From a virus, in the IMG/VR virus record IMGVR_UViG_3300007735_000800, positions 1 to 64,000 of that record: 64,000 nucleotides of DNA. The stretch is one strand, 5' to 3'. Positions 1 to 43,360 of this stretch are shown here, in pieces. A model generated the notes under the pieces. It saw only the letters and a program-made list of their open reading frames with translations, did not search any database and was not told the origin of the DNA. The position numbers and the translations under genes were made by a program. Each line of letters begins with the position of its first letter. Positions within the stretch are counted from its first letter, which is position 1.

Positions 1-42
1 GGGACATGCCCCTATGATAAGGGATAAGTTAGAATCTGTCAA
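1..42 (-). promoter_or_regulatory. Leaderless early-type promoter and start of a gene leaving the left edge
   Basis: On the minus strand TTGACA (42-37), a 17-base spacer, TATCAT (19-14) and six bases lead straight to an ATG at 7-5. Only ATGTCCC of the gene is inside the window, so its product cannot be judged. The predicted transcript start falls on the ATG, so the mRNA would be leaderless. Four more genes within the next 1.4 kb have exactly the same spacing. Confidence 0.75.
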
Positions 43-137
43 CCGATGCGCGAAGAAATATTTGAGATTATATTATCGGGCGCACCATCCAGGCCGGCGA
101 CTACTATCCGGCGAGCGAAGCGAGCCGGTGGACGGAC

Positions 138-164
138 TCAGGCCGGCGCTGCGCGCCGGCCTGA
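138..164. terminator. GC-rich hairpin, probable terminator
   Basis: A perfect 12-bp inverted repeat (138-149 with 153-164) has a 3-base loop and a GGCCGGCGC core. It lies downstream of the minus-strand gene at 247-492. No U-tract follows, so the termination role is inferred from position and from two similar hairpins at 1279 and 1647. Confidence 0.55.
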
Positions 165-187
165 TAGTAGCCCCCATAAACAGCCTA

Positions 188-206
188 GCCCCGAACGAAT
201 CGGGGC
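188..206. terminator. Second hairpin downstream of the 247-492 gene
   Basis: A 7-bp perfect stem (GCCCCGA at 188-194, TCGGGGC at 200-206) with a 5-base loop lies between the 247-492 gene and the larger 138-164 hairpin. It may be the proximal terminator of that gene. No T-run follows on either strand. Confidence 0.4.
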
Positions 207-246
207 AGGGAGCGAATCCTTTTCGGCTGTTACGAGCACCACCTCG

Positions 247-492
247 TTAGATCATGTCCCTCCGGGGCGCGATGAGAACGCCGTAGGCGATGTTGTGGAT
301 CATCTCGTACACCTCGCGCTTCGACTTGAACCCGCCGATGCCCACGACTCCGGCTTCGCAGTTGCGTTGCAGTTGCCATCCGCCGTAGGCTCCCTGGAGG
401 CAGAAGGAGCCCTTCTCGCCCGGCTTCACGCCGAGGTGGAGGTTGAGGCAGGCGAGGGCTTCGTTGACTTGCTTGATGGTGGTGCGCTTCAT
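247..492 (-). CDS. Small early-type protein of unknown function (81 aa)
   Basis: The product is 81 residues, GC-rich in codon use and read from an ATG placed six bases after a TACAAT -10 box, so translation is probably leaderless. It resembles, by general pattern only, short phage proteins with an N-terminal helix (KQVNEALACLN), a Gly/Trp-containing middle (YGGWQLQ) and a SKREVYEMIHNIAYGV helix. No catalytic motif is visible. It sits in a group of small, individually promoted genes typical of early host-takeover regions, which is inferred from layout. No function is assigned. Confidence 0.75.
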   Translation of the reverse strand: MKRTTIKQVNEALACLNLHLGVKPGEKGSFCLQGAYGGWQLQRNCEAGVVGIGGFKSKREVYEMIHNIAYGVLIAPRRDMI

Positions 493-527
493 GGTTGTAT
501 TGTACCGTAGGTGGTGCGTGTTGTCAA
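493..527 (-). promoter_or_regulatory. Leaderless sigma70-type promoter
   Basis: TTGACA (527-522), a 17-base spacer, TACAAT (504-499) and six bases precede the ATG at 492. There is no room for a ribosome-binding site in the transcript. Confidence 0.85.
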
Positions 528-542
528 GCGACCCGGAAAGAT

Positions 543-890
543 TTAGTGGTTGATTTCCGGGGGCGCGGAGGGGATGAACGCTTCGTGGATGCTGTCCACG
601 CGGAAGGATCGCAGCCCGCCCGCCGAGTGGTCGAAGTACAGGATGGATGCGGGGTAGGCGTTGTCCGTGGCGAGGTTCTCGATATCATCGTCCGTGCCAA
701 AGGCCTTGACGATGGAGGGGTTGCGCGTGGCCATGCGCGTGGCGATCACGCCATCGGTCTTCCGGTACTGGAGGCAGACCCAGCCCGCGTTGAGCGCGGT
801 GTACAGCATGGCCCGGTTGTCGGCGTAGCGCGGGTGCGAGGCGTTGAAGACGAGGGGGAGGACGATGGGGCGGGTGTCGATGGTGCTCAT
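543..890 (-). CDS. SH3/Sm-like fold (WYL_2-type) small phage protein
   Basis: This 115-residue protein has the pattern of the WYL_2 (formerly DUF2693) phage family, a predicted Sm-like SH3 barrel. A strand with KTDGVIATRMAT (around residues 44-55) is followed by ILYFDHSAGGLRSFRVDSI near residues 83-101, corresponding to the usual hydrophobic-D-x(4-5)-RSFR-x-D-I block. The role of the family is unknown. The start is the ATG six bases after TACAAT. A related C-terminal domain may occur in the AT-rich gene at 26632-27330. The assignment is from pattern memory, without a search. Confidence 0.72.
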   Translation of the reverse strand: MSTIDTRPIVLPLVFNASHPRYADNRAMLYTALNAGWVCLQYRKTDGVIATRMATRNPSIVKAFGTDDDIENLATDNAYPASILYFDHSAGGLRSFRVDSIHEAFIPSAPPEINH

Positions 891-925
891 GCACCCATTG
901 TAACCTATGGCCGGTGGTTTGTCAA
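891..925 (-). promoter_or_regulatory. Leaderless sigma70-type promoter
   Basis: TTGACA (925-920), a 17-base spacer, TACAAT (902-897) and six bases precede the ATG at 890. Confidence 0.85.
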
Positions 926-961
926 GCGACCTGCAGAAAGAAATATTTCTTTCCGAATGGG

Positions 962-996
962 TTGACAGGACAGCAGGTAGGCCGTATCATGGGGGC
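962..996 (+). promoter_or_regulatory. Leaderless sigma70-type promoter
   Basis: TTGACA (962-967), a 17-base spacer, TATCAT (985-990) and GGGGGC lead into ATG at 997. The 36-base gap to the divergent promoter at 891-925 contains no other signal. Confidence 0.85.
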
Positions 997-1254
997 ATGA
1001 GCACCCCTACCGACAACCACGAGCACGAACACTTCCCCTGCGACTGCCACCGCCCCGAGTACGCCTACACGGACAGCCTCTGCCCGATGTGCGAGGAGGA
1101 GCGCGAGCGGGAGCGCGAGAAGCGCATGGAGCAGGAGAGGCGCTGCGATGAGGCGGATCAGCAGGCGTTCGCGGATGCCTGCGGGAGCATGACGCAGGAT
1201 GACTGGGATGCAGACAACGACTGGCTAGCGAGCGCGGGATGGGGCGAGATGTAA
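997..1254 (+). CDS. Small Cys/His-containing acidic protein (85 aa)
   Basis: The start at 997 is chosen because the promoter places the transcript start there; an upstream in-frame ATG at 907 would lie before the promoter. The 85-residue product opens MSTPTDNH, has a possible metal-binding set (CDCH near residue 15, CPMC near 28), then a highly charged Glu/Arg helix and an acidic Trp-containing tail. Start context, length and Cys layout resemble the neighbouring 1369-1626 gene, suggesting distant paralogy. Function is unknown. Confidence 0.75.
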   Translation: MSTPTDNHEHEHFPCDCHRPEYAYTDSLCPMCEEEREREREKRMEQERRCDEADQQAFADACGSMTQDDWDADNDWLASAGWGEM

Positions 1255-1278
1255 GCCCACCGCCTACCACCCAGCCCC

Positions 1279-1303
1279 ATGCCGGCCCCGTAGGGGCCGG
1301 CAT
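1279..1303. terminator. GC-rich hairpin terminator
   Basis: A perfect 11-bp stem (1279-1289 with 1293-1303, core GCCGGCCCC) with a GTA loop lies 24 bases after the stop codon of the 997-1254 gene. It shares the GCCGGC core with the hairpins at 138 and 1647. Confidence 0.65.
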
Positions 1304-1333
1304 GGTCATTCGAAGAAATATAATGGGAAATGG

Positions 1334-1368
1334 TTGACAAACTTCCCACCTGCCCTTATCATAGGGGC
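1334..1368 (+). promoter_or_regulatory. Leaderless sigma70-type promoter
   Basis: TTGACA (1334-1339), a 17-base spacer, TATCAT (1357-1362) and AGGGGC lead into ATG at 1369. The sequence from -10 to the start codon nearly repeats that at 985-1005. Confidence 0.85.
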
Positions 1369-1626
1369 ATGAGCACCACCTGCAACAACGATGAAACCCC
1401 CCGCCCCGAGCCCGTGTGCCCCCGCTGCGGCTGCAGCGATGACGCGCCCAACAGCCACGACCTCTGCGAAACTTGCGTGGAGGAAATGGATGCCGGGTAC
1501 GAGGCCGATGACGAATGGGCCCCGGAGGACCCCGGCATCGATGGGGACCACCCCACCGGGTACGAGGCCGATGACGAACGCCCCTACGGGTGGGATGTGC
1601 CCGAGGAGGAATACCCGGACTGGTAA
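1369..1626 (+). CDS. Small zinc-ribbon-like acidic protein (85 aa)
   Basis: The 85-residue product has two CxxC pairs (CPRC near residue 18 followed by GC, and CETC near 35), suggesting a small zinc ribbon. The second half is very acidic and contains the repeated element GYEADDE twice. Start context, length and Cys layout resemble the 997-1254 gene. The small size, acidic charge and own early-type promoter fit a host-modifying early phage protein, but that is inference. Confidence 0.75.
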   Translation: MSTTCNNDETPRPEPVCPRCGCSDDAPNSHDLCETCVEEMDAGYEADDEWAPEDPGIDGDHPTGYEADDERPYGWDVPEEEYPDW

Positions 1627-1646
1627 CCCCAGTCCTCCCAGCCCTC

Positions 1647-1675
1647 CGATGGCCGGCGCGAAGCGCCGGCCATCG
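1647..1675. terminator. GC-rich hairpin terminator
   Basis: A perfect 13-bp stem (1647-1659 with 1663-1675) with a GAA loop lies 20 bases after the stop of the 1369-1626 gene. It contains the GGCCGGCGC core also found at 138-164. A short T-containing stretch follows. Confidence 0.7.
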
Positions 1676-1867
1676 TTGTTATTTGAAATAACAAATTTAA
1701 TTGGTAGACGAGTGTCCGAGTAGTGATTTGGGTCCCATATGACGGCGCGTTATCGGACGCGCTAGCCCCACCCCCCTTCAATTTTCTCAAATTTTCTCAA
1801 ATATTCTTGATGGTCTAAAAATTTTTTGGCCACCCCCATACCCCCAAACCTCAAAATACATGATATG
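1676..1867. other. Composition switch, no gene seen
   Basis: Base composition changes here from clearly GC-rich to strongly AT-rich. I see no ORF with a plausible start, no promoter and no complete tRNA. AATTGGTAGACG near 1697 resembles a tRNA D-arm, but no acceptor or T-arm pairs with it. Confidence 0.6.
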
Positions 1868-1877
1868 CCAAAAAAAA

Positions 1878-1903
1878 TTTTGGGCCCCCGAAGAGGCCCA
1901 AAA
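1878..1903 (-). terminator. Rho-independent terminator of the late cassette
   Basis: The stem TTTTGGGCC (1878-1886) with GGCCCAAAA (1895-1903) is flanked by an A-run at 1870-1877, which reads as a U-run on the minus strand. It follows the stop of the 1938-2441 gene. Confidence 0.85.
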
Positions 1904-1937: not shown

Positions 1938-2441
1938 TTATCTGTCTCTCTTCTTATTTTTTGCCAATGCGATTGCTAGATTTTTCTTTTTTGCCTTCTT
2001 GCCTCTTCCTGGTTCTGAACCACCTTTTCTTCGTCGGTCTGATCGCTCTTGGAATATCTCATCGCTTCCAACCTGCAATGCCGGTCCTTTGCCCACCATT
2101 GAAGCGTAGATTGGATTGTCTTGTACGGTTGGTCTGCCCGAGTTTGATACGATTTCCCGTGTAAGGTATTCTTGGTCACTCCCTACGTTTCGGATGGCTC
2201 CCATGCCGGGATATACGGAAAATCGTGCTGTTTTTCTGGCACCCTTGCCGAGAGGATTTCCTTGTTTGGTGACTTCTGTTCCGATAATGCGGGGGACGGG
2301 TTCGCCTGTGTAAGGATCCACGTCATCCACATCGAGGTGAACTATGCTCTTCTTCCTGTACTCCAAGAGTTGTTCTAGTTGGTTGACTTGTTCTTGAAGT
2401 TGTTCGCAAAGATTTTTGTAGTAATTTGTTAAGTAGTCCAT
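1938..2441 (-). CDS. Candidate internal head protein, MDYLTNYYK-type N-terminus (167 aa)
   Basis: The start at 2441 is chosen because a late box, TATAAATA, lies five bases upstream; longer in-frame readings would start before the promoter. The N-terminus MDYLTNYYKNLCEQLQ closely matches the 2495-3190 protein and leads into QLLE at residues 24-27, which fits the L/I-x-E cleavage rule of T4 gp21 protease. The rest is Gly/Arg/Lys-rich and basic, ending in a Lys/Arg-rich tail. T4 internal proteins have the same plan: cleaved targeting peptide plus small basic domain. The packaging role is inferred. Confidence 0.75.
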   Translation of the reverse strand: MDYLTNYYKNLCEQLQEQVNQLEQLLEYRKKSIVHLDVDDVDPYTGEPVPRIIGTEVTKQGNPLGKGARKTARFSVYPGMGAIRNVGSDQEYLTREIVSNSGRPTVQDNPIYASMVGKGPALQVGSDEIFQERSDRRRKGGSEPGRGKKAKKKNLAIALAKNKKRDR

Positions 2442-2454
2442 TGAAATATTTATA
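2442..2454 (-). promoter_or_regulatory. T4-type late promoter, leaderless
   Basis: TATAAATA (2454-2447) is followed by five bases and then the ATG at 2441. T4 late transcripts start about six bases after the box, which here falls on the ATG. Confidence 0.85.
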
Positions 2455-2461
2455 AAAAAAA

Positions 2462-2485
2462 ACCGAGATGTTTTTGGATCTCGGT
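2462..2485 (-). terminator. Terminator directly upstream of a late promoter
   Basis: ACCGAGAT (2462-2469) pairs with ATCTCGGT (2478-2485) around an 8-base loop, and T-runs follow on both strands. On the minus strand the U-run merges into the late box at 2454, so one gene ends and the next begins within about 40 bases. Confidence 0.85.
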
Positions 2486-2494
2486 TTTTTGTTT

Positions 2495-3190
2495 TTAGCG
2501 AATTGGTGCCGAACCTCTGCCAGGAATTGTTCCTCCACCCTTTCTTGGTGTTGGGGGTACTCCGCTGTCTCTTGGTTGAGGTGGTATTGGATTGTCTTTT
2601 TTCCATTTTGGATCCTGTTTTTGCCACCATTTAAAGTAATTATACCATTCTTTTTGATATTCTGGATCTTGGCTTCCTTTTGGATATCCTCTTGGATCCG
2701 GTTTATCAGGTTGTTGTGGGGCCGGTTGTTGTGGGGCCGGTTGTTGTGGAGGGGGTTGTTGTGGAGGGGGTTGGGGAGCTGGTGGTTGTGGCGCTGGGGG
2801 TTGTGGGGCTGGGGGTTGGGGGGGTATTTGTCCACCTCCTCCAAATCCTCCTCCAAATCCATTATTACCGACAGCATCAAATCTAGTCGGTTCATTTGGC
2901 TCTTGATCAACTCGGCTTCTGGTTGCTCCACTACGTTGCATATCACCACCATATTCAAATCTATCAGAGGGCTCTTGATCAACTCGGGTTCTGGTTCCTC
3001 CACTACGTTGCATATCACCACCATATTCAAATCTTCTATTCTTAGAATATCTGTTAAAGGCAGAGTTTAGGTCGAACGGTATGTCTTCATTTAACATTAA
3101 TGATTTTTTATAAATTGCAGATTCTAAAATATTAATTTTGACCTGTAATTGTTCTGATAAATTTTTGTAATAATTTGTCAAGTAGTCCAT
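2495..3190 (-). CDS. Candidate internal head protein with repeats and Pro/Gln-rich tract (231 aa)
   Basis: The N-terminus MDYLTNYYKNLSEQLQ is nearly identical to that of the 1938-2441 protein and leads to NILE at residues 20-23, an I-x-E motif. The body has a 24-residue unit repeated twice (beginning RFEYGGDMQRSG), a Gly-rich patch, about 45 residues of QPPAPQPP-type repeats and a basic Gly/Pro tail. It appears largely disordered. The start is five bases after the late box TCTAAATA. A delivered or packaged head protein is the best guess; no enzymatic domain is visible. Confidence 0.72.
   Translation of the reverse strand: MDYLTNYYKNLSEQLQVKINILESAIYKKSLMLNEDIPFDLNSAFNRYSKNRRFEYGGDMQRSGGTRTRVDQEPSDRFEYGGDMQRSGATRSRVDQEPNEPTRFDAVGNNGFGGGFGGGGQIPPQPPAPQPPAPQPPAPQPPPQQPPPQQPAPQQPAPQQPDKPDPRGYPKGSQDPEYQKEWYNYFKWWQKQDPKWKKDNPIPPQPRDSGVPPTPRKGGGTIPGRGSAPIR
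2708..2823. repeat. G-rich minisatellite encoding the Pro/Gln tract
   Basis: Short units of the type GGTTGTTGTGGGGCC and GGTTGTTGTGGAGGG are repeated imperfectly. On the minus strand they encode QPPAPQ/QPPPQQ repeats. The runs of four or more G give some G-quadruplex potential. Confidence 0.75.
2901..3035. repeat. 72-bp tandem duplication inside a CDS
   Basis: Bases 2901-2963 and 2973-3035 match except for a few positions, giving a 72-bp period. It encodes two copies of a 24-residue unit in the 2495-3190 protein. Confidence 0.85.
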
Positions 3191-3209
3191 GAATTTATTT
3201 AGATAAATA
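3191..3209. promoter_or_regulatory. Overlapping divergent late promoters
   Basis: On the minus strand TCTAAATA (3203-3196) lies five bases from the ATG at 3190. On the plus strand GATAAATA (3202-3209) serves the 3226 gene, leaving a short leader with the ribosome-binding site AAAGGAA. The two boxes overlap by two bases. Confidence 0.7.
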
Positions 3210-3225
3210 TGTAAAAGGAAATTTT

Positions 3226-3408
3226 ATGCTAACAAAAATTAAAAATTTCGTAAAGAAGGTTACTGTGCTTGAATGGGTAGTCCTCGGAATCGCCATATTG
3301 GCTCTCTGGCTTGCCGTTGCCCCAAAGCACGCTCCAGCACACAAAGGTCCTCACGGTGGCAATAAGGCCGTGGAAAAGGCCGTTGAAGTGGAAGCCGAGA
3401 AGAAGTAA
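3226..3408 (+). CDS. Small single-span membrane protein (60 aa)
   Basis: Residues 1-11 are basic, residues about 14-33 form one hydrophobic membrane segment (VLEWVVLGIAILALWLAVAP), and the rest is a His/Pro/Lys/Glu-rich soluble tail. It is the only plus-strand gene in the late cassette and has its own late promoter and ribosome-binding site. A small, late, single-span protein could be a holin-like or envelope-acting lysis protein, or an entry factor, but there is no family match to decide. Confidence 0.72.
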   Translation: MLTKIKNFVKKVTVLEWVVLGIAILALWLAVAPKHAPAHKGPHGGNKAVEKAVEVEAEKK

Positions 3409-3429
3409 GTTAAAAAATTTAACAAAAAA

Positions 3430-3458
3430 AAATTTGAGTCCTTTTGGGGCTCAAATTT
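3430..3458. terminator. Bidirectional terminator
   Basis: AAATTTGAG (3430-3438) pairs with CTCAAATTT (3450-3458), flanked by an A-run on the left and a T-run on the right. It serves the converging 3226-3408 and 3464-4093 genes. Confidence 0.85.
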
Positions 3459-3463
3459 TTTAT

Positions 3464-4093
3464 TTAGTCTCCGGTGTAGTGTCCGAATGGTGCATTAGGA
3501 TTTCTTGGTCTTCCTTTTGAATCTCTTCGACCCATTATGATGTCTGCTCTGAGGTTCTCATCTTCCACGAATTGATTGTGTTCTGGGCGTGCATTCAATT
3601 CTTTTCTAGTGAGGTCTCTGAGAACGACCAATCCCCTGGCTTGATCTTTTAGGTCCTGTGGATCGACATAGGATTGGCTGAATTGCTTCATTGCATTTTG
3701 GCGGGCTGCGCTGCTAAATTTGTATGAGGAAAGTGGACGACCTCTGTAATTGGTTCCGGAGATATGGGCTTTCAGGGCATCGGATTTTCTTGTAGACATT
3801 TCTCTATACAAATCTTCGATTGCTCTGTTCTGTCTACTTAGATTGCGGTCAATCCTAGCATATTCACGGTTCGGGTATCGTCCACCAAAACTGTCAACAC
3901 GCAAATCTCCTTCTTGGTCATCTCTCATGGTTGCTGTGTTTGGTGGCGGATCTCCAGCATCATTGTATGCTGTGGTCAGTGGAATGAAATTTGGACGACC
4001 CATTTCATTCAAGGTAATTTGTTTTTCAAGAATCAACTTTGCGTTGTGCTGTAGATTATTTGTAAAATTTAAATTATCCGTTGAAAATCTCAT
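3464..4093 (-). CDS. Candidate internal head protein (209 aa)
   Basis: The N-terminus contains NLNFTNNLQHNAKLILEK; LNFTNN recalls the LNLS-N element of the next two genes, and LILE at residues 20-23 fits the L/I-x-E protease motif. The rest is hydrophilic and rich in Arg, Asn and Asp, with no recognisable enzyme domain. It is the third member of a run of co-oriented genes with tiny gaps (1-2 bases), so it is probably co-transcribed with 4095-5510. Membership of the targeted family rests mainly on the N-terminus and context. Confidence 0.68.
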   Translation of the reverse strand: MRFSTDNLNFTNNLQHNAKLILEKQITLNEMGRPNFIPLTTAYNDAGDPPPNTATMRDDQEGDLRVDSFGGRYPNREYARIDRNLSRQNRAIEDLYREMSTRKSDALKAHISGTNYRGRPLSSYKFSSAARQNAMKQFSQSYVDPQDLKDQARGLVVLRDLTRKELNARPEHNQFVEDENLRADIIMGRRDSKGRPRNPNAPFGHYTGD

Positions 4094-4094
4094 T

Positions 4095-4565
4095 TTAGTT
4101 TTTCTTTCTGTGCTTCCTGGTTTTTAGAAACGAAATTGCCTGACGTAGGTCGGAGACATCTGCAACTCCCTCATTCTCAAATTCTGTTCCAAATACTTTT
4201 GCATATTTTTTCTGTGATCTTCGAATGTCAGCGTCAAGAGCTCTGATCTTGGGACTTCCTGGAACCTTTGGTCCAGAACGCTTTATGTCTCCAACGACGC
4301 GTTTGAATGATTTAACTTGTTGAGGATTGATTCCATGAGACTGTGGAGATTCAATTGCCTTTTCAAGAGCGATCAAGTCATCCATCCGCAGCATCCCTGC
4401 TTTCTGGCCTCTTAATTTTCTTCTTTCATCTGGATCATGTATCTCAGCTTCAACTAATGCGTTAAATAAAATATCATCTAATTGGGCTTCTTGAATTTGC
4501 CTTACTGCATCATGGTAATTGTTTGAAAGATTTAAATGATCTTTAAATGGATTGTAATTTTTCAT
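4095..4565 (-). CDS. Candidate internal head protein, NPFxDHLNLS-type N-terminus (156 aa)
   Basis: The first 27 residues (MKNYNPFKDHLNLSNNYHDA, then VRQIQEA) align with those of the 4567-5064 protein. The I-Q-E/A sequence at residues 24-27 is a good match to the T4 gp21 cleavage consensus. The remainder is a helical, Lys/Arg-rich domain ending KTRKHRKKN, unlike any sibling's C-terminus. The arrangement of a shared short head with a different tail suggests a common targeting signal on different cargoes. Confidence 0.72.
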   Translation of the reverse strand: MKNYNPFKDHLNLSNNYHDAVRQIQEAQLDDILFNALVEAEIHDPDERRKLRGQKAGMLRMDDLIALEKAIESPQSHGINPQQVKSFKRVVGDIKRSGPKVPGSPKIRALDADIRRSQKKYAKVFGTEFENEGVADVSDLRQAISFLKTRKHRKKN

Positions 4566-4566
4566 T

Positions 4567-5064
4567 TTATAATGTGTAGGTTGTTGAGTAACGTCCGAGG
4601 GTATTTTTTGAAGTTGGTCCAGAAATTATTCTTGTATTAAAATCAGTAGAATCTGGTTCCCAATAATTTGGAAGATTTATTCCAGCAATTCCCCTTTCAC
4701 GCAATTTTTTAATTTCATCGGGAGTTAGCACACCAGAAGTAGGAGACATGCCAGCAGCAATTCTAACTTTTCCGGAAAAAGTTCTACCCGATCTTTCTGC
4801 GGCTCTCATTTCTTTTCTTTTTTCTGTCTCTGCGGCAATGGCATCCAGTTCTTCTCTAGTTCGCATTCTGGAACTTCTTTCTTTTGGGGAACTGAAACCT
4901 CTAATAAAATCCGAATGAGTAACTCTACTGCCCCCTACATACGGACCACGTGAATCACCTATTCTTGTTCCAGGAATAATTTTGGCTTCCAAAATTTGTT
5001 TAGCCGCATCATATAAATTTGGAGAAAGATTTAAGTGATCGTTGAAAGGGTTGCAGTTATTCAT
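4567..5064 (-). CDS. Candidate internal head protein, mosaic of two siblings (165 aa)
   Basis: The N-terminus (NPFNDHLNLSPNLYDAAKQ followed by ILEA) matches the 4095-4565 protein. The C-terminus instead matches the 5067-5510 protein: INLPNYWEP versus IDLPDTWNP, and LGRYSTTYTL versus LGKYSQTYRF at the very end. It is therefore a recombinant between two family types, direct evidence of module exchange. I-L-E/A near residues 24-27 is the predicted protease site. The middle is charged and probably helical. Confidence 0.74.
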   Translation of the reverse strand: MNNCNPFNDHLNLSPNLYDAAKQILEAKIIPGTRIGDSRGPYVGGSRVTHSDFIRGFSSPKERSSRMRTREELDAIAAETEKRKEMRAAERSGRTFSGKVRIAAGMSPTSGVLTPDEIKKLRERGIAGINLPNYWEPDSTDFNTRIISGPTSKNTLGRYSTTYTL

Positions 5065-5066
5065 TT

Positions 5067-5510
5067 TTAGAACCTATATGTTTGTGAATATTTTCCAAGA
5101 GTGCCGGATGTACCCATACTACCAAGATTTTTTTCACTTGCAGATAATATTCTTCTTCTAGAAGAATAATTATAATCATCAGCGGGATTCCATGTATCTG
5201 GAAGATCTATCTGTGGTATATTCTTTAATTCATCATTTCTTTTTTTGTCTTCTACATAATCACTAAAATCACGAGGTTTACCATAGTTAAAACCAAATGG
5301 AAAGCCAGGAGTGCCTGGTGGTACTTGTGTATTTCTTTTTTTATTTCTAGTTCTTGGATCTAATCTAGAGTCACCTGGGCGATATGGTCTTTTTCGTTTA
5401 GGAGGATCAGGAGGTCCTCCACCAAATCCACCTCCACCTTCCAATAAAGAATAAATTCTTTTTTCAAGGTCTTCGCATAGCTTTTTATAATAAAGAGCAG
5501 TATAATCCAT
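5067..5510 (-). CDS. Candidate internal head protein, MDY-type N-terminus (147 aa)
   Basis: The N-terminus MDYTALYYKKLCEDLEKRI is of the same type as the 1938 and 2495 proteins, and SLLE/G at residues 21-25 fits the L/I-x-E rule, followed by a Gly-rich linker. The C-terminal 45 residues match those of the 4567-5064 protein. The body is basic (KRKRPYRPGD, RNKKRN). A late promoter gives a leaderless start at 5510. It is probably the first gene of the 5510-to-3464 transcription unit. Confidence 0.74.
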   Translation of the reverse strand: MDYTALYYKKLCEDLEKRIYSLLEGGGGFGGGPPDPPKRKRPYRPGDSRLDPRTRNKKRNTQVPPGTPGFPFGFNYGKPRDFSDYVEDKKRNDELKNIPQIDLPDTWNPADDYNYSSRRRILSASEKNLGSMGTSGTLGKYSQTYRF

Positions 5511-5523
5511 AAAATTATTTATT
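5511..5523 (-). promoter_or_regulatory. T4-type late promoter, leaderless
   Basis: AATAAATA (5523-5516) and five bases precede the ATG at 5510. The box lies over the last codons of the upstream 5515-5958 gene. Confidence 0.75.
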
Positions 5524-5958
5524 ATTTTTTAATTCCTGGATTTTATCAAACAATTTTTCTTTTTCAGCATCAACAGAAACCGTCAAATTTATTAAATTTA
5601 GTTTTTCAATATCGTACTCCTCAATTTTCTTTTTTCTTATCAAAGAATCTTTTGGAATATTTGGATCATAATTGCTGAATCCAGGCATCTTTAATGGACA
5701 AGTGAGGTAAGGATAATCTAATTTGGCATAGACTCCCTCTTCTCTCATTAACCATGTATGCGAGTGATCACCACAACCACATCTACCACAATAGTAAAAA
5801 CTTGATTTTTCACTAGCCTTTAAATTTTGACATGGTCTGATTTCATCATTTCCATAACAAGAAATATATCGTAATTTTTTTGTTTCTGGATCTGTTTTTT
5901 TATTTGAAGTTCCACGGGAGGCTATTGCCATAGCCAACAACATCATTTTTTTTATCAT
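5515..5958 (-). CDS. Cys-rich (zinc-ribbon-like) protein next to baseplate genes (147 aa)
   Basis: Cysteines lie in the arrangement C...C...CGRCGCGDHSH...TCP, suggesting a metal-binding knuckle at residues about 35-80. The same order, including the ...P-x-(L/I)-TCP ending, occurs in the 20251-20814 protein, so the two look like paralogs. It overlaps the upstream wedge gene by 4 bases (ATGA-type coupling), implying co-translation with the baseplate operon. The N-terminus is hydrophobic but too short to call a signal peptide. A baseplate or fibre assembly role is possible; function is unknown. Confidence 0.7.
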   Translation of the reverse strand: MIKKMMLLAMAIASRGTSNKKTDPETKKLRYISCYGNDEIRPCQNLKASEKSSFYYCGRCGCGDHSHTWLMREEGVYAKLDYPYLTCPLKMPGFSNYDPNIPKDSLIRKKKIEEYDIEKLNLINLTVSVDAEKEKLFDKIQELKNNK

Positions 5959-24249: not shown

Positions 24250-24924
24250 ATGAAATCATTTAAACAATTTTTAATAGAACAATCTCAAAATCAGCAGATT
24301 AAATGTGATATAAATGGTATATGTAAGATTATTAGACAATATGAATCGGGTGGTAATGAAACAAAAATACTTTCAAGATATCTTGACAGTAAAGATCTTC
24401 CAACAATAGGACATGGACATTTAATTACTCCAGAATCTGAACAAATTTTTTCTGACGTTTTTCCGGCAGAACACCAATCAGATCCTGATTTTGGCAAAAA
24501 AGTTCTTTCAGGACAAGCATCACTAACTCCAGCTCAAGTTGAGACATTATTTGCCAGAGATGTTCAAGTTCGTCTTCCCAGTGTTGTAAAAATAATTCCA
24601 AATTTTAATTCAATGACTTCTGAACTACAAGGAGAACTTGTATCAGAATACTTTAGAGGTATGTTAGGCAAATCACCAAAAGCAGTAGAATTAATAAATC
24701 AAAATAAATTTGATGAAGCTGCTACAGAATACATAAATGCATCGGAATACCGTGAAGCCAAAAAAGAAAAATCAAAAAATCGCGGAATAGGAATTCGCAT
24801 GGATAATTTGGCAAATGCCCTTAAAACGGAATTGCAACGTCGCAAGGAACGTCAGCAGTCTTCGCAACCCACCAATCAGGCTCCTCCGAATAACTCCACT
24901 TCGCAAAACGCACCTTCTCGTTAA
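24250..24924 (+). CDS. T4-type lysozyme (GH24) with possible capsid-targeting N-terminus
   Basis: Residues 30-60 hold the GH24 active-site pattern: QYESGG (E32 as T4 E11), an Asp near 46-49 (as D20) and LPTIGHGHLIT (T52 as T26). The helical lobe (NQNKFDEAATEYINASEY) and an IRMDNLANAL helix follow. The N-terminus MKSFKQFLIEQ strongly recalls the T4 internal-protein targeting peptide (MKTYQEFIAEA) and has L-I-E at the cleavage position. The last 30 residues are Gln/Asn/Pro-rich. It may be packaged or act in entry; ordinary endolysin action is the alternative. Confidence 0.85.
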   Translation: MKSFKQFLIEQSQNQQIKCDINGICKIIRQYESGGNETKILSRYLDSKDLPTIGHGHLITPESEQIFSDVFPAEHQSDPDFGKKVLSGQASLTPAQVETLFARDVQVRLPSVVKIIPNFNSMTSELQGELVSEYFRGMLGKSPKAVELINQNKFDEAATEYINASEYREAKKEKSKNRGIGIRMDNLANALKTELQRRKERQQSSQPTNQAPPNNSTSQNAPSR

Positions 24925-27837: not shown

Positions 27838-28638
27838 ATGGTACCAGTAACACGCCAAGAATTCATAGATTATTGCTATAGATCTTTAGGAGCTCCAGTA
27901 GTTCAAATAAATGTAGATCCTTTGCAGGCAGAAGATAGATTGGATGAGGCTTTGGAGTATATGTATGAGCGTCATTTTGATTTCAATCAAAGGGCGCTAT
28001 ATCTTTATCAAATCACTCAAAACGATATTAACAACAAATATTTTGACACAACCCAATTCGGTCCAGCTTTGGGCGCGACAGGATCATGGCCTCTGGCCAC
28101 AGACATTAGAACAATAACAAAAGTGTATAGACCATCAGACGTTTCTGGTGACTACATGTTTGATCTAAGATATCAATTGACATTATTCGATTTCTTTGGT
28201 TTGTATTTTAACCAGGGTGGAATGCAGACTGGACCCATGGCAAGTTACATGGAATCGATGAGTTACTTGAAATTAATAAATGATGTTTTTAATTATCCAG
28301 TATCATATACATTTACAAAAACAACCAATAGATTGTTTTTGGATACGCAATATTCAGCTCTAGTTCCTGGAAGTTATCTTTTGGTTGAAGCTTATGTTCA
28401 AATTAACCCATCTGAATATCCAAAAGTTTGGGCAGATCGTGTATTTAAAAAATATTACACAGCATTATTGAAAAAACAATGGGCACAAAATTTAATGAAA
28501 TTTGCAGGAGTGCCTTTACCGGGTGGGGCACAGCTTAATGCCGGTGCCCTAATGGCTGAAGCAACCAATGAATTGGCTGCAATAGAAGAAAAACTGATAA
28601 AAACGCAAGAATTGCCTCCAGACCCATTAATAGGATAA
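27838..28638 (+). CDS. 13: Neck protein gp13
   Basis: This 266-residue protein matches T4 gp13 (309): LDEALEYMYERHFDFN near residue 40, SGDYMFDLRYQLTLFD near 101, and the C-terminal WAQNLMKFAGVPLPGGAQLN followed by an EATNEL helix. gp13 and gp14 form the neck ring closing the head and accepting the tail. It heads the large plus-strand late block. Confidence 0.9.
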   Translation: MVPVTRQEFIDYCYRSLGAPVVQINVDPLQAEDRLDEALEYMYERHFDFNQRALYLYQITQNDINNKYFDTTQFGPALGATGSWPLATDIRTITKVYRPSDVSGDYMFDLRYQLTLFDFFGLYFNQGGMQTGPMASYMESMSYLKLINDVFNYPVSYTFTKTTNRLFLDTQYSALVPGSYLLVEAYVQINPSEYPKVWADRVFKKYYTALLKKQWAQNLMKFAGVPLPGGAQLNAGALMAEATNELAAIEEKLIKTQELPPDPLIG

Positions 28639-39384: not shown

Positions 39385-40029
39385 ATGAAACTTATCACAG
39401 AACTAACAGAAGACATAAAATATGTAAAGGAAAACGTGGGTAATGGCGATAAAAATTATTACATTGAGGGCATATTCATGCAATCAGATGTTAAAAATCG
39501 CAATGGCCGCATATATCCTAAAAATACTTTGGCCAAAGAAACAAGCAGATACATCAACGAATATGTCAATAAGGGTCGTGCCCTCGGTGAATTAAACCAT
39601 CCAACTGGACCAACTGTAAATCTTGATAGAGTATCACACATTGTCAAAGAACTTCAAGAAGATGGAAAAAACATCTATGGTAAGGCTAAAGTTCTTGATA
39701 CCCCAATGGGTAAGATTGTAAAAAATTTAATTGATGAAGGAGCTCAACTTGGAGTTTCAACTCGTGGTATGGGTTCTTTAAAATCAAGAAATGGATACCA
39801 AGAAGTTCAAGAAGATTTCATGTTAGCTGCAATTGATATTGTTGCAGATCCATCTGCTCCAAATGCTTTTGTAAATGGAATCATGGAAGGTAGAGAATGG
39901 ATGTTTGAGAATGGAATTTGGTCGGAAAGACAGTACCAAGGTGCTCGCAAATTAATTTCCAACTCTTCTTCAAGAAATTTAGAAAAAAATATAGTAAAAG
40001 TATTCAAAAACTACTTTAGGAATATTTAA
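39385..40029 (+). CDS. 21: Prohead core protease gp21
   Basis: The 214-residue protein (T4: 212) has the family catalytic elements: GRALGELNHP (His near 71) and GVSTRGMGSLKS (Ser near 125), in the herpes/phage prohead protease fold. It matures the prohead by cutting after L/I-x-E in core, capsid and internal proteins. This is the protease predicted to act on the 1938-5510 family. Confidence 0.92.
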   Translation: MKLITELTEDIKYVKENVGNGDKNYYIEGIFMQSDVKNRNGRIYPKNTLAKETSRYINEYVNKGRALGELNHPTGPTVNLDRVSHIVKELQEDGKNIYGKAKVLDTPMGKIVKNLIDEGAQLGVSTRGMGSLKSRNGYQEVQEDFMLAAIDIVADPSAPNAFVNGIMEGREWMFENGIWSERQYQGARKLISNSSSRNLEKNIVKVFKNYFRNI

Positions 40030-40868: not shown

Positions 40869-41906
40869 ATGAATAAAAGAAACAACAAAAAAGATTTACA
40901 AGAAGTAATGAATGCTATGCAAGCTAACGGTGTAGCATTTACTCCAGATGGTCGTGGAGAAATAATCCCACAACCAATCGTAACCGCTAATAATTTAGCA
41001 AAAGCCCAGGTTCCTACTCCAGCTGCTGCTATGGCCGGAGCTTTTCCTGCTATGGGTGCTCCAGCTCCAATGCAACAATCTGCTCCGGAGCCTGAAGAAG
41101 AGGAAGAAGAAGAGGAAGAGGATGAAGACGAAGTAACAGAAGTAGAGGAAGCTGCCCGCATTCAATTCCGTTCAGCTCTAATTGAACTTCTTGGTGAAAA
41201 TGTTTCAGAATCTCTAGTTTCTCAACTTGAGGGAATTTTCGAAGCTGCTGTTCAAGAAAGAGTCAATGCTCATTTGAATGAAACTTTAGAAAATGTAGAT
41301 GGTAATGTAAAAAATTACCTAAATCAAGTAACAGAGAGCTTGGTTGAAAAAGTTGACGACTATCTAGATTATGTCGTAGAAGAATGGATGCAAGAAAATA
41401 CAGTTGCAGTTGAACAAGGCATCAAGACTCAAATTGCTGAAAATTTTATCGGCGGTCTAAAGAACTTGTTTGAAAATCATTACATCGACGTTCCAAATGA
41501 TAAGTATAATGCTTTAGATGAGCTTTATGCCCAAAATATTTCATTGCAACATACATTAAACAATGCCATCAATGAGAATCTAAATCTTCGCAAAGAAATC
41601 AATCTAACTGAGTGTGCTGGTGTCTTTGTTTCCGAAACAAGAGATCTTGCCGATACTCAAATTGCCAGATTGCAATCTTTGATGGAAAACGTTACCTTTA
41701 ATACAACTGATGAATACCGTGAAAAATTGGTAGCAATAAAGGACAACTATTTGCAATCGCAAAATTTTGTTCGTCCAGTTGTTCAACCAATTCCACAACC
41801 AACAATTATTACAGAAGAAATGACATTTTCGCCAGTCAGAAATACTGAATCATCCACAGTCGATCAGTATGCTGATGTAATTGGAAAACTCAACAGAAAA
41901 GTTTAA
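40869..41906 (+). CDS. 22: Prohead scaffold protein gp22
   Basis: The 345-residue protein lies directly before gp23 and has the expected features: an Ala/Pro/Met-rich region, an extremely acidic run (EEEEEEEEDEDE near residue 80) and a long helical coiled region including QVTESLVEKVDDYLDYVVEE, typical of gp22. It is longer than in T4 (269). The core is degraded by gp21 during maturation. Confidence 0.88.
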   Translation: MNKRNNKKDLQEVMNAMQANGVAFTPDGRGEIIPQPIVTANNLAKAQVPTPAAAMAGAFPAMGAPAPMQQSAPEPEEEEEEEEEDEDEVTEVEEAARIQFRSALIELLGENVSESLVSQLEGIFEAAVQERVNAHLNETLENVDGNVKNYLNQVTESLVEKVDDYLDYVVEEWMQENTVAVEQGIKTQIAENFIGGLKNLFENHYIDVPNDKYNALDELYAQNISLQHTLNNAINENLNLRKEINLTECAGVFVSETRDLADTQIARLQSLMENVTFNTTDEYREKLVAIKDNYLQSQNFVRPVVQPIPQPTIITEEMTFSPVRNTESSTVDQYADVIGKLNRKV

Positions 41907-41953: not shown

Positions 41954-43360
41954 ATGAATTTTCAAGACAATACGCCATATGATATTTTAACAGAGAAGTG
42001 GAATCCCGTGCTCGATCACGGCGCTCTTCCAACTATCGCTGATGATTACCGTAAGAAGGTCACTGCTGTCCTTCTTGAAAACCAAGAGCAATCAATTCGT
42101 GCTCAACACCTAACAGAAGACATGAGCTCCAATAACTTGGGAATGCCATCAAGCTTCACCAACAATGGTAGCGTTGCTGGATATGATCCAGTACTCATTT
42201 CGTTGGTTCGTCGCGCTATGCCAAATTTGATGGCATACGACATCTGTGGTGTTCAGCCAATGACCGCCCCAACTGGCCTCATTTTCGCAATGCGTGCCAA
42301 CTATGGTGGTTTCAGCTATGGTGCTACAGCTGGTTATGCTGAAGCAATGTTCCAAGAAGCCCAACCAAACTACGGTGGTTCTGGTTATACTATAGGATTG
42401 GATTACCGTGGATTTACAGCAGGCTACGGTCTCTGTGGTTCTTGCGGTCCAACCTCCGGTAACCCAACTACTAATGGAATTAGATCCTATACCGCAGCAC
42501 AATTCAGTGCTTTCCGTGGCATGTTGACCTCAACAGGTGAAGCTCTTGGTTCACCAACAGTTTTCAATCAAATGGCTTTCTCAATTGACCGTGTTGCCGT
42601 ACAAGCTCGTACACGCGCTCTAAGCAGCAACTACACAATTGAATTAGCACAAGATTTGAAAGCCGTTCACGGTCTTGATGCTGAAGCCGAACTCGCCAAC
42701 CTACTCAGCACTGAAATTCTTGCTGAAATCAACCGCGAGATCGTCCGCACCATCTACTACGTTGCTCGTAAGGGTTCTGTCCAATCAGATTTGACTGTTA
42801 CAGGTGAATATGATTTGAATTCAGATTCTGATGGTCGTTGGTCAGCTGAAAGATTCCGTGGTCTCACTTTCCAAATTGAGCGTGAGTGCAACGCAATCTC
42901 CAAGGAAACCCGTCGTGGTAAGGGCAACTTCATCATCTGCGATAGCGATACCGCAGCTGCCCTCGCCATGTCTGGCTTCATGAGCCTAAGCCCAGGAATC
43001 GCTCCACAACTCAATGTTGATGATACCCAAGGAACTTTTGCTGGTATCCTAAGTGGAAAGATTCGTGTTTATATCGATCCTTACACCCCACTCGGTGTAA
43101 ACTTCTTCTGCGCCGGCTATAAGGGCGAGTCACCATATGATGCAGGTTTGTTCTACTGCCCATACGTTCCTCTCCAAATGGTTCGTGCAGTTGATCCAAA
43201 TACCTTCCAGCCAAGAATTGCCTTCAAGACCCGTTATGGTGTCGTAGCCAACCCTTACGTCCTAAACGGAACTGCTCCAGATGGCGAAGCTTTAACTCAA
43301 GGTATCAATCAATACTACCGCTTGACTCAAGTCAAGAACCTACACGGTATGACACTCTGA
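41954..43360 (+). CDS. 23: Major capsid protein gp23
   Basis: The 468-residue protein (T4: 521) has the gp23 signature LVRRAMPNLMAYDICGVQPM near residues 77-96 and the HK97-fold core. The sequence QHLTE/D near residue 56 aligns with the T4 maturation cleavage FLTE/A, confirming the L/I-x-E rule for this phage's protease. The codons are more GC-rich than those of neighbours, as expected of a very highly expressed gene. Confidence 0.96.
   Translation: MNFQDNTPYDILTEKWNPVLDHGALPTIADDYRKKVTAVLLENQEQSIRAQHLTEDMSSNNLGMPSSFTNNGSVAGYDPVLISLVRRAMPNLMAYDICGVQPMTAPTGLIFAMRANYGGFSYGATAGYAEAMFQEAQPNYGGSGYTIGLDYRGFTAGYGLCGSCGPTSGNPTTNGIRSYTAAQFSAFRGMLTSTGEALGSPTVFNQMAFSIDRVAVQARTRALSSNYTIELAQDLKAVHGLDAEAELANLLSTEILAEINREIVRTIYYVARKGSVQSDLTVTGEYDLNSDSDGRWSAERFRGLTFQIERECNAISKETRRGKGNFIICDSDTAAALAMSGFMSLSPGIAPQLNVDDTQGTFAGILSGKIRVYIDPYTPLGVNFFCAGYKGESPYDAGLFYCPYVPLQMVRAVDPNTFQPRIAFKTRYGVVANPYVLNGTAPDGEALTQGINQYYRLTQVKNLHGMTL

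Follow-up and report, generated by a model that had tools for sequence, protein, structure and literature searches.

Six adjacent minus-strand genes, located between positions 1938 and 5510 of the uncultured viral genome IMGVR_UViG_3300007735_000800 (IMG/VR), very likely belong to a set of at least 15 head-cargo proteins spread over the genome, which carry interchangeable N-terminal capsid-targeting labels, are cut by gp21 and are delivered into the host. The record is 126,277 bases long; its bases 1-64000 make up the stretch analyzed here (the window), and the remaining 62 kb were also read, in pieces. The phage is a T4-like myovirus, whose gp23 (41954-43360) shows ~53% identity to cyanophage major capsid proteins. 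It also encodes a gp22-type scaffold protein and a gp21-type prohead protease; the latter had been placed at 39385 in an initial annotation made from the letters of the window alone, and is confirmed by its Pfam and PHROG matches (Table 1). The labels would work like the capsid-targeting sequence (CTS) of T4, while two of the label types, judged by their sequence, appear to be new.

Labels, predicted cut site and exchanged bodies

Three types of label are distinguished here. Type A (MDYxxxYYKNLxEQLQ..) covers ~23-35 residues, is predicted to be helical and is rich in L and E. Type B has the form ..FxDHLxxSxN..D.., or ..FxDHLxFSNN.., and type C has the consensus MKSFKQFLxE, to be compared with MKTYQEFIAE (IPII, IPIII) and MKTFKEF (IPI) in the T4 record. 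Residues 4, 7, 8, and 10 of the T4 CTS govern targeting and cutting (PMC9026906), and type C is conserved at these residues, which is partly owed to the pattern used to collect it. The type C motif is strongly biased to the N-terminus, lying three residues after a methionine in 75 copies and elsewhere in 17. Within the cassette, type A is found on 1938-2441, 2495-3190, and 5067-5510, and type B on 4567-5064, 4095-4565, and, more loosely, 3464-4093. None of the six has the T4 CTS form M-K-x-[FY]-x-x-F-[LI]-x-E, which type C proteins elsewhere in the genome do have; by this measure, the cassette labels fall outside the T4 CTS family, to which the type C proteins of the genome belong.

The initial annotation had described the six as basic or low-complexity proteins with two or three types of N-terminus, each ending in L/I-x-E. 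All six open reading frames (ORFs) are present, and the true starts of 1938-2441 and 2495-3190 lie inside the longest ORF (corrected to 2441 and 3190), as indicated by label homology and, for the former, by an exact late-promoter box. Their full-length isoelectric points (pI) are 9.3-9.8, against a median of 5.8 in 79 other genes of the genome. Two types of N-terminus hold up, that of 3464-4093 being a looser type B. The claim that 4567-5064 is a mosaic was borne out at both ends: its N-terminus matches that of 4095-4565 with a score of 96 (shuffle maximum 38), and its C-terminus that of 5067-5510 with a score of 64 (shuffle maximum 43). The C-terminal ending LGxYSxTYxx recurs once elsewhere in the genome, at 86917-87834. 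A site is present in all six, but two or three of the named positions need to be moved (a slash marks the joint). The common body of 3464-4093 begins after LNE (residue 30), not ILE (23); homologs of 4095-4565 put the joint at LVE/AEI (39), the probable site, with IQE/A (26) as a possible extra one; and in 2495-3190, both ILE/S (23) and LNE/D (35) are possible. As an [LI]xE with its P1 at residues 20-35 is also found in 19 of 85 other genes (22%), its presence in six out of six is suggestive rather than decisive by itself; the case becomes strong with the comparative data.

Querying IMG/VR with the type A label yielded 77 loci (labeled L0xx below; coordinates in L008, L009, and L010 map to the window's own genome). 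A profile run over all fetched loci detected ~155 type A proteins with dozens of unrelated bodies; type B was counted by profile (15 proteins) and type C by pattern (61), and a wider type B scan added few loci. Label genes commonly stand in tandem, with up to 7 per fetched locus. All 12 large label-bearing contigs have type A and 9 have gp21, the contigs being fragmentary, so that the three absences mean little. The rest of the window's genome contains three more type A proteins (101349, 102464, and 106499), a looser one (106065), and five proteins with starts like those of T4 internal proteins (108967, 113083, 113673, 114380, and 114754), a sixth of which lies in the window at 24250, bringing the total to at least 15 label-bearing genes. 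Further N-termini ending in [LI]xE are less clear (e.g., 40029, 86917, 96645, and 97391). Both this extent and the non-T4 sequence of types A and B were out of view for the initial annotation. Separately, a possible further label, KKIKxYSWIHELNxAAxxAKLLNE/A, was observed behind a -13 late box in L008 (~14146; genome 96645), L013, L032, L039, and L055.

Label-bearing relatives came only by label-based search: the whole 4567-5064 protein had none in IMG/VR, and an alignment of seven label sequences was too loose to serve as a query. Among cultured phages, and within the limits of these searches, the cassette DNA gave no match, and tblastn with the label peptides gave nothing above chance level. 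Within the limits of the scan, no type A label was confirmed in 84,980 bacterial and archaeal species genomes, which therefore give no hint of the host. No earlier report of label types A and B was found in an incomplete literature search.

Over residues 1-20, type A conservation is mostly ~2.5-4.3 bits; after [LI]xE, it falls to ~0.5 bit. In 51 of 140 canonical type A proteins, the site lies at residue 23. A later site is present in 87 of the other 89 (residues 27-41, nearly all 27-31), where shuffled sequences lead one to expect 18-28, and the remaining two have LxE/A at residue 24, by eye. Where the early site is present, second sites are not in excess (14, with 15.4 expected). P3 is L in 93 and I in 34 of 131 sites (127/131), though V was also allowed, and A is the commonest P1' residue (55). 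As far as sequence can tell, this preference is the rule by which T4 gp21 cuts, L/I-x-E (PMC9026906).

The bodies behind the labels are exchanged at this same site. Seven body families were found under different label types (A/B, A/C, and B/C), with the joint at [LI]xE. For example, MSYSFFPNDFTSLPNLQDQAFLMKQKQVNE/ASRPTFIPLTTAYDDS (B, L041) and MNYLTQHYKNLAEQLQEKVVILQKAINE/AGRPTFIPMTVAYDDS (A, L076) have bodies that are 87% identical, as compared with 90% for L076 and L084, and both pairs agree at 1-2 of the 12 residues before the site. Bodies are 81% identical between MHYLANYYKNLCEQLQEKVNFLEKQYLTE/VENWDEQ (A, L087) and MKKFKEFLRE/AVENWDEQ (C, L067), and 44% between the window's 4095-4565 (B) and MKSFKQHLEE/AEIYSPEQ (C, L037). 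In total, body identity is 79-90% in three A/B pairs and 81% in one A/C pair, and just 0-2 of the 12 residues before the site agree in swap pairs. For 7 of 8 pairs, change points placed without reference to the site lie at most 6 residues from where an [LIV]xE ends; the remaining pair, 4095-4565 with L037, needs gaps, and its joint was placed by local alignment. A mature body behind a T4-form CTS was seen for 4095-4565 (Table 1) and for other A/C families, and was not seen for the other five cassette proteins. In L043 and L075/L076, the body of 3464-4093 has a type A label, and in L033/L041 a different type B one; all of the at least 10 homologs of 1938-2441 carry type A. Metagenome chimeras were rejected as a source of swaps, as the joints fall repeatedly at the same place inside intact ORFs. 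In L069 (4889) and L078 (5938), a type B segment is directly followed by a full type A label, either by fusion or through an alternative start; these were left out of the argument, since the true start is unclear.

Since labels A, B, and C are found on the same bodies, the simplest view is that types A and B lead to the same place as type C, and the best reading of both is as new capsid-targeting labels, which gp21 would remove. The initial annotation's proposal of swappable targeting peptides ending at a gp21-type site is supported by these swaps, including those with the T4-type label; in the alignment of N-termini across related phages that it had put forward as a check, conservation drops at [LI]xE and bodies swap there. 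From T4, we infer core binding, cleavage, packaging, and injection as follows. Label proteins would be made late, and the label would bind the scaffolding core of the prohead, enclosing the cargo; that gp22 is the binding partner is a guess. The gp21-type protease would cut after [LI]xE, freeing the basic mature protein, which would stay with the DNA and enter the host at infection. Recombination would have joined bodies to labels repeatedly at the cut site; with the label thrown away after cutting, any body could go with any label.

Cargo and rival explanations

Clustered by body, the 227 label proteins give 98 clusters (65 singletons), and their median pI is 8.7-8.9, against 5.8. Family matches were few among 82 representatives: LysM, dockerin, EF-hand-like calcium motifs, one ADP-ribosyltransferase, one methyltransferase, and domains of unknown function (DUFs). 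PHROG matches of the cargo include endolysins and Alt-like enzymes. The T4-type label is found on the ADP-ribosyltransferase (L087, within 1260-2404), in a locus that also has type A genes, and on the methyltransferase (L045, 4688-5230, with a similar protein in L087). It is also found on the lysozyme-like protein at 24250-24924, where this N-terminus is kept in homologs, those from cultured phages matching from residue 16 on only; a head-packaged lysozyme would, to our knowledge, be unusual. Two type A proteins have Gly-rich bodies with a repeated dockerin-like GDxNGDGxVDxxDL (L008 18850-19887 and L009 465-1811; genome 101349-103813). The six cassette proteins matched no family in Pfam or PHROGs, nor those of T4 IPI, IPII, and IPIII. 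Structure prediction gave a confident helical domain in the body of 3464-4093, which matched no known fold, and a best model of mostly low confidence for 1938-2441. Of the internal proteins, IPI is an inhibitor of GmrSD (PMC3012670), and IPIII is required on a single E. coli strain (PMC9391042); by analogy, our foremost guess is that the cargo serves in counter-defence or host take-over.

Alternatively, the labels could be packaging signals for proteins whose main role lies inside the head, where they would build the core, condense DNA, or neutralise charge, and not in the host as injected effectors. The basic and commonly low-complexity bodies would fit such a role, as would the low-confidence model of 1938-2441, but 98 body clusters exceed structural need, and the cargo includes enzymes (ADP-ribosyltransferase, methyltransferase, lysozyme-like); we consider this explanation unlikely. 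A role of types A and B as coiled-coil or docking segments to the tail, baseplate, or head surface, with [LI]xE arising from helix composition, is very improbable. Type A is indeed predicted to form a helix and has many L and E residues, chance occurrence of [LI]xE is as frequent as given above, and the cassette adjoins baseplate genes in the window. However, one site is kept wherever it has moved, with no excess of second sites given an early one, conservation ends at the site, and the same bodies occur under a T4-type CTS. Moreover, in IMG/VR relatives found via the baseplate neighbours, the baseplate block continues into gp13 with no cassette at the junction, and these short contigs have no type A label. 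Finally, recent duplication alone, with bodies diverging afterwards and no label function, would suit the commonly tandem type A genes and the relatedness of some bodies, but is scarcely credible, as it could not by itself place conserved bodies under unrelated labels, nor does it fit a sharp boundary at the site.

Several points weigh against packaged and injected cargo as well. No sequence similarity links types A and B to the T4 CTS, and a pI above 8 is found in 60% of label proteins, not in all. The site counts are not independent, being inflated by the relatedness of tandem genes. The case for injection is one of analogy only. On balance, packaging of the cargo alongside the DNA and its delivery into the host are probable. 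The label search would then provide a handle, at scale, on head-packaged and probably injected proteins of uncultured phages. As most cargo lacks a known family, it would also supply candidates for host take-over or counter-defence. A problem in head assembly becomes open to testing as well, namely how several unrelated short signals lead to one prohead core, and the labels would offer alternatives to the T4 CTS in packaging studies.

Late promoters and gene arrangement

In T4, the late box TATAAATA occupies positions -13 to -6 relative to the transcription start (PMC1524935). Counts of this box in the fetched loci, by distance to a following ATG, are 106 at exactly 13 nt and 0-23 at each other offset from 8 to 39, and 104 of the 106 ATGs open an ORF of at least 50 codons. 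Labels of type A, B, or C are carried by 54 of the 84 distinct genes with this -13 box, which some other genes also have. When up to one mismatch is allowed, the box is present at -13 in 76 of 153 type A genes and in 43 of 751 other ORFs. If the start is positioned as in T4, these mRNAs would be leaderless, which predicts that many label genes are read from leaderless late mRNAs. T4 differs in this respect: its exact late boxes are found 22-36 nt upstream and mostly have a Shine-Dalgarno sequence after them; the window's gp23 has a normal leader. No earlier report of leaderless T4-type late mRNAs was found, within the same incomplete literature search.

In the cassette, such boxes precede three of the genes (Table 1), and 4567-5064, 4095-4565, and 3464-4093 begin one to three bases past the preceding stop codon. 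The terminator-like hairpins suggest three transcription units: 5067-4567-4095-3464, 2495, and 1938.

Table 1. Features of the cassette and associated genes in the window (aa, amino acids).
Feature	Position	Strand	Remarks
Label protein, type A, 147 aa	5067..5510	-	Site LLE/G, residue 24; C-terminus common with 4567-5064
Its type A label, residues 1-24	5439..5510	-
Late-promoter-like box, one mismatch to TATAAATA	5516..5523	-	-13 to -6 of the 5067-5510 ATG
Label protein, type B, 165 aa	4567..5064	-	Site ILE/A, residue 26; 4095 N-terminus with 5067 C-terminus
Its type B label, residues 1-26	4987..5064	-
Label protein, type B, 156 aa	4095..4565	-	Body homologs under T4-type label in L037, L049
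Its type B label up to LVE, residues 1-39	4449..4565	-
Label protein, loose type B, 209 aa	3464..4093	-	Joint LNE/M, residue 30
Its type B label up to LNE, residues 1-30	4004..4093	-	Predicted helix 6-31, then disordered stretch
Terminator-like hairpin after 3464-4093	3427..3461	-	Scan listed + strand; minus copy also followed by T
Label protein, type A, 231 aa, Pro/Gln-rich body	2495..3190	-	Sites ILE/S (23) or LNE/D (35)
Its type A label if LNE is cut, residues 1-35	3086..3190	-
Late-promoter-like box, one mismatch to TATAAATA	3196..3203	-	-13 to -6 of the 2495-3190 ATG
Terminator-like hairpin after 2495-3190	2457..2490	-	Scan listed + strand; minus copy ends in T run
Label protein, type A, 167 aa	1938..2441	-	Site LLE/Y, residue 27
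Its type A label, residues 1-27	2361..2441	-	Predicted helix 3-28
Late-promoter box TATAAATA, exact	2447..2454	-	-13 to -6 of the 1938-2441 ATG
Terminator-like hairpin after 1938-2441	1878..1903	-
Lysozyme-like protein with type C label MKSFKQFLIE	24250..24924	+
gp21-type prohead protease	39385..40029	+	PF03420, E 2e-40; PHROG 207, E 5e-82; expected cutter of labels
gp22-type scaffold protein	40869..41906	+	PF25623, E 2e-51; proposed label partner

On the opposite strand within the cassette lies a small 60-aa ORF with a hydrophobic segment (3226-3408). In relatives, the gene corresponding to 5515-5958 is directly followed by gp13; here, gp13 (27838-28638) lies 22 kb off, with the cassette at the break. 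The two ends of the record (window 1-1900; genome ~116-126 kb, L009/L010) are GC-rich, at ~55-63% against ~35% elsewhere, reflecting either a chimeric assembly or, in a permuted genome, an island that spans the ends.

Comparison with known systems

Beyond this genome, the data point to a widespread uncultured T4-like clade, which probably uses at least two classes of capsid-targeting label unrelated to the T4 CTS, exchangeable with it on ~100 or more cargo families, with joints at the protease site and many leaderless late mRNAs. As in the T4 internal proteins IPI, IPII, and IPIII, a short N-terminal propeptide ending in L/I-x-E is joined to basic and diverse mature proteins, in a phage that has gp21 and gp22. 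Internal proteins of T-even phages are likewise diverse, with only the CTS in common (PMC3012670). Types A and B, however, are 23-39 residues long up to the site, whereas the T4 CTS has 10; here, several label types are interchangeable on one body, and the genome has at least 15 label genes.

T4 Alt is packaged in the head and injected. A similar arrangement is found in L087 (1802-2404), where a type C label precedes an ADP-ribosyltransferase domain, although this protein is far shorter (201 aa) and comes from a relative rather than the window. The inner-body and ejection proteins of phiKZ and SPN3US also form large head-internal sets, from which propeptides are removed by a gp21-related protease, and redundant sites have been reported in one phiKZ propeptide (PMC9026906). 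The conserved joint described here differs from the S/A-x-E sites of phiKZ in being L/I-x-E, and the phage is T4-like, of gp23 type, and has a gp22-type scaffold.

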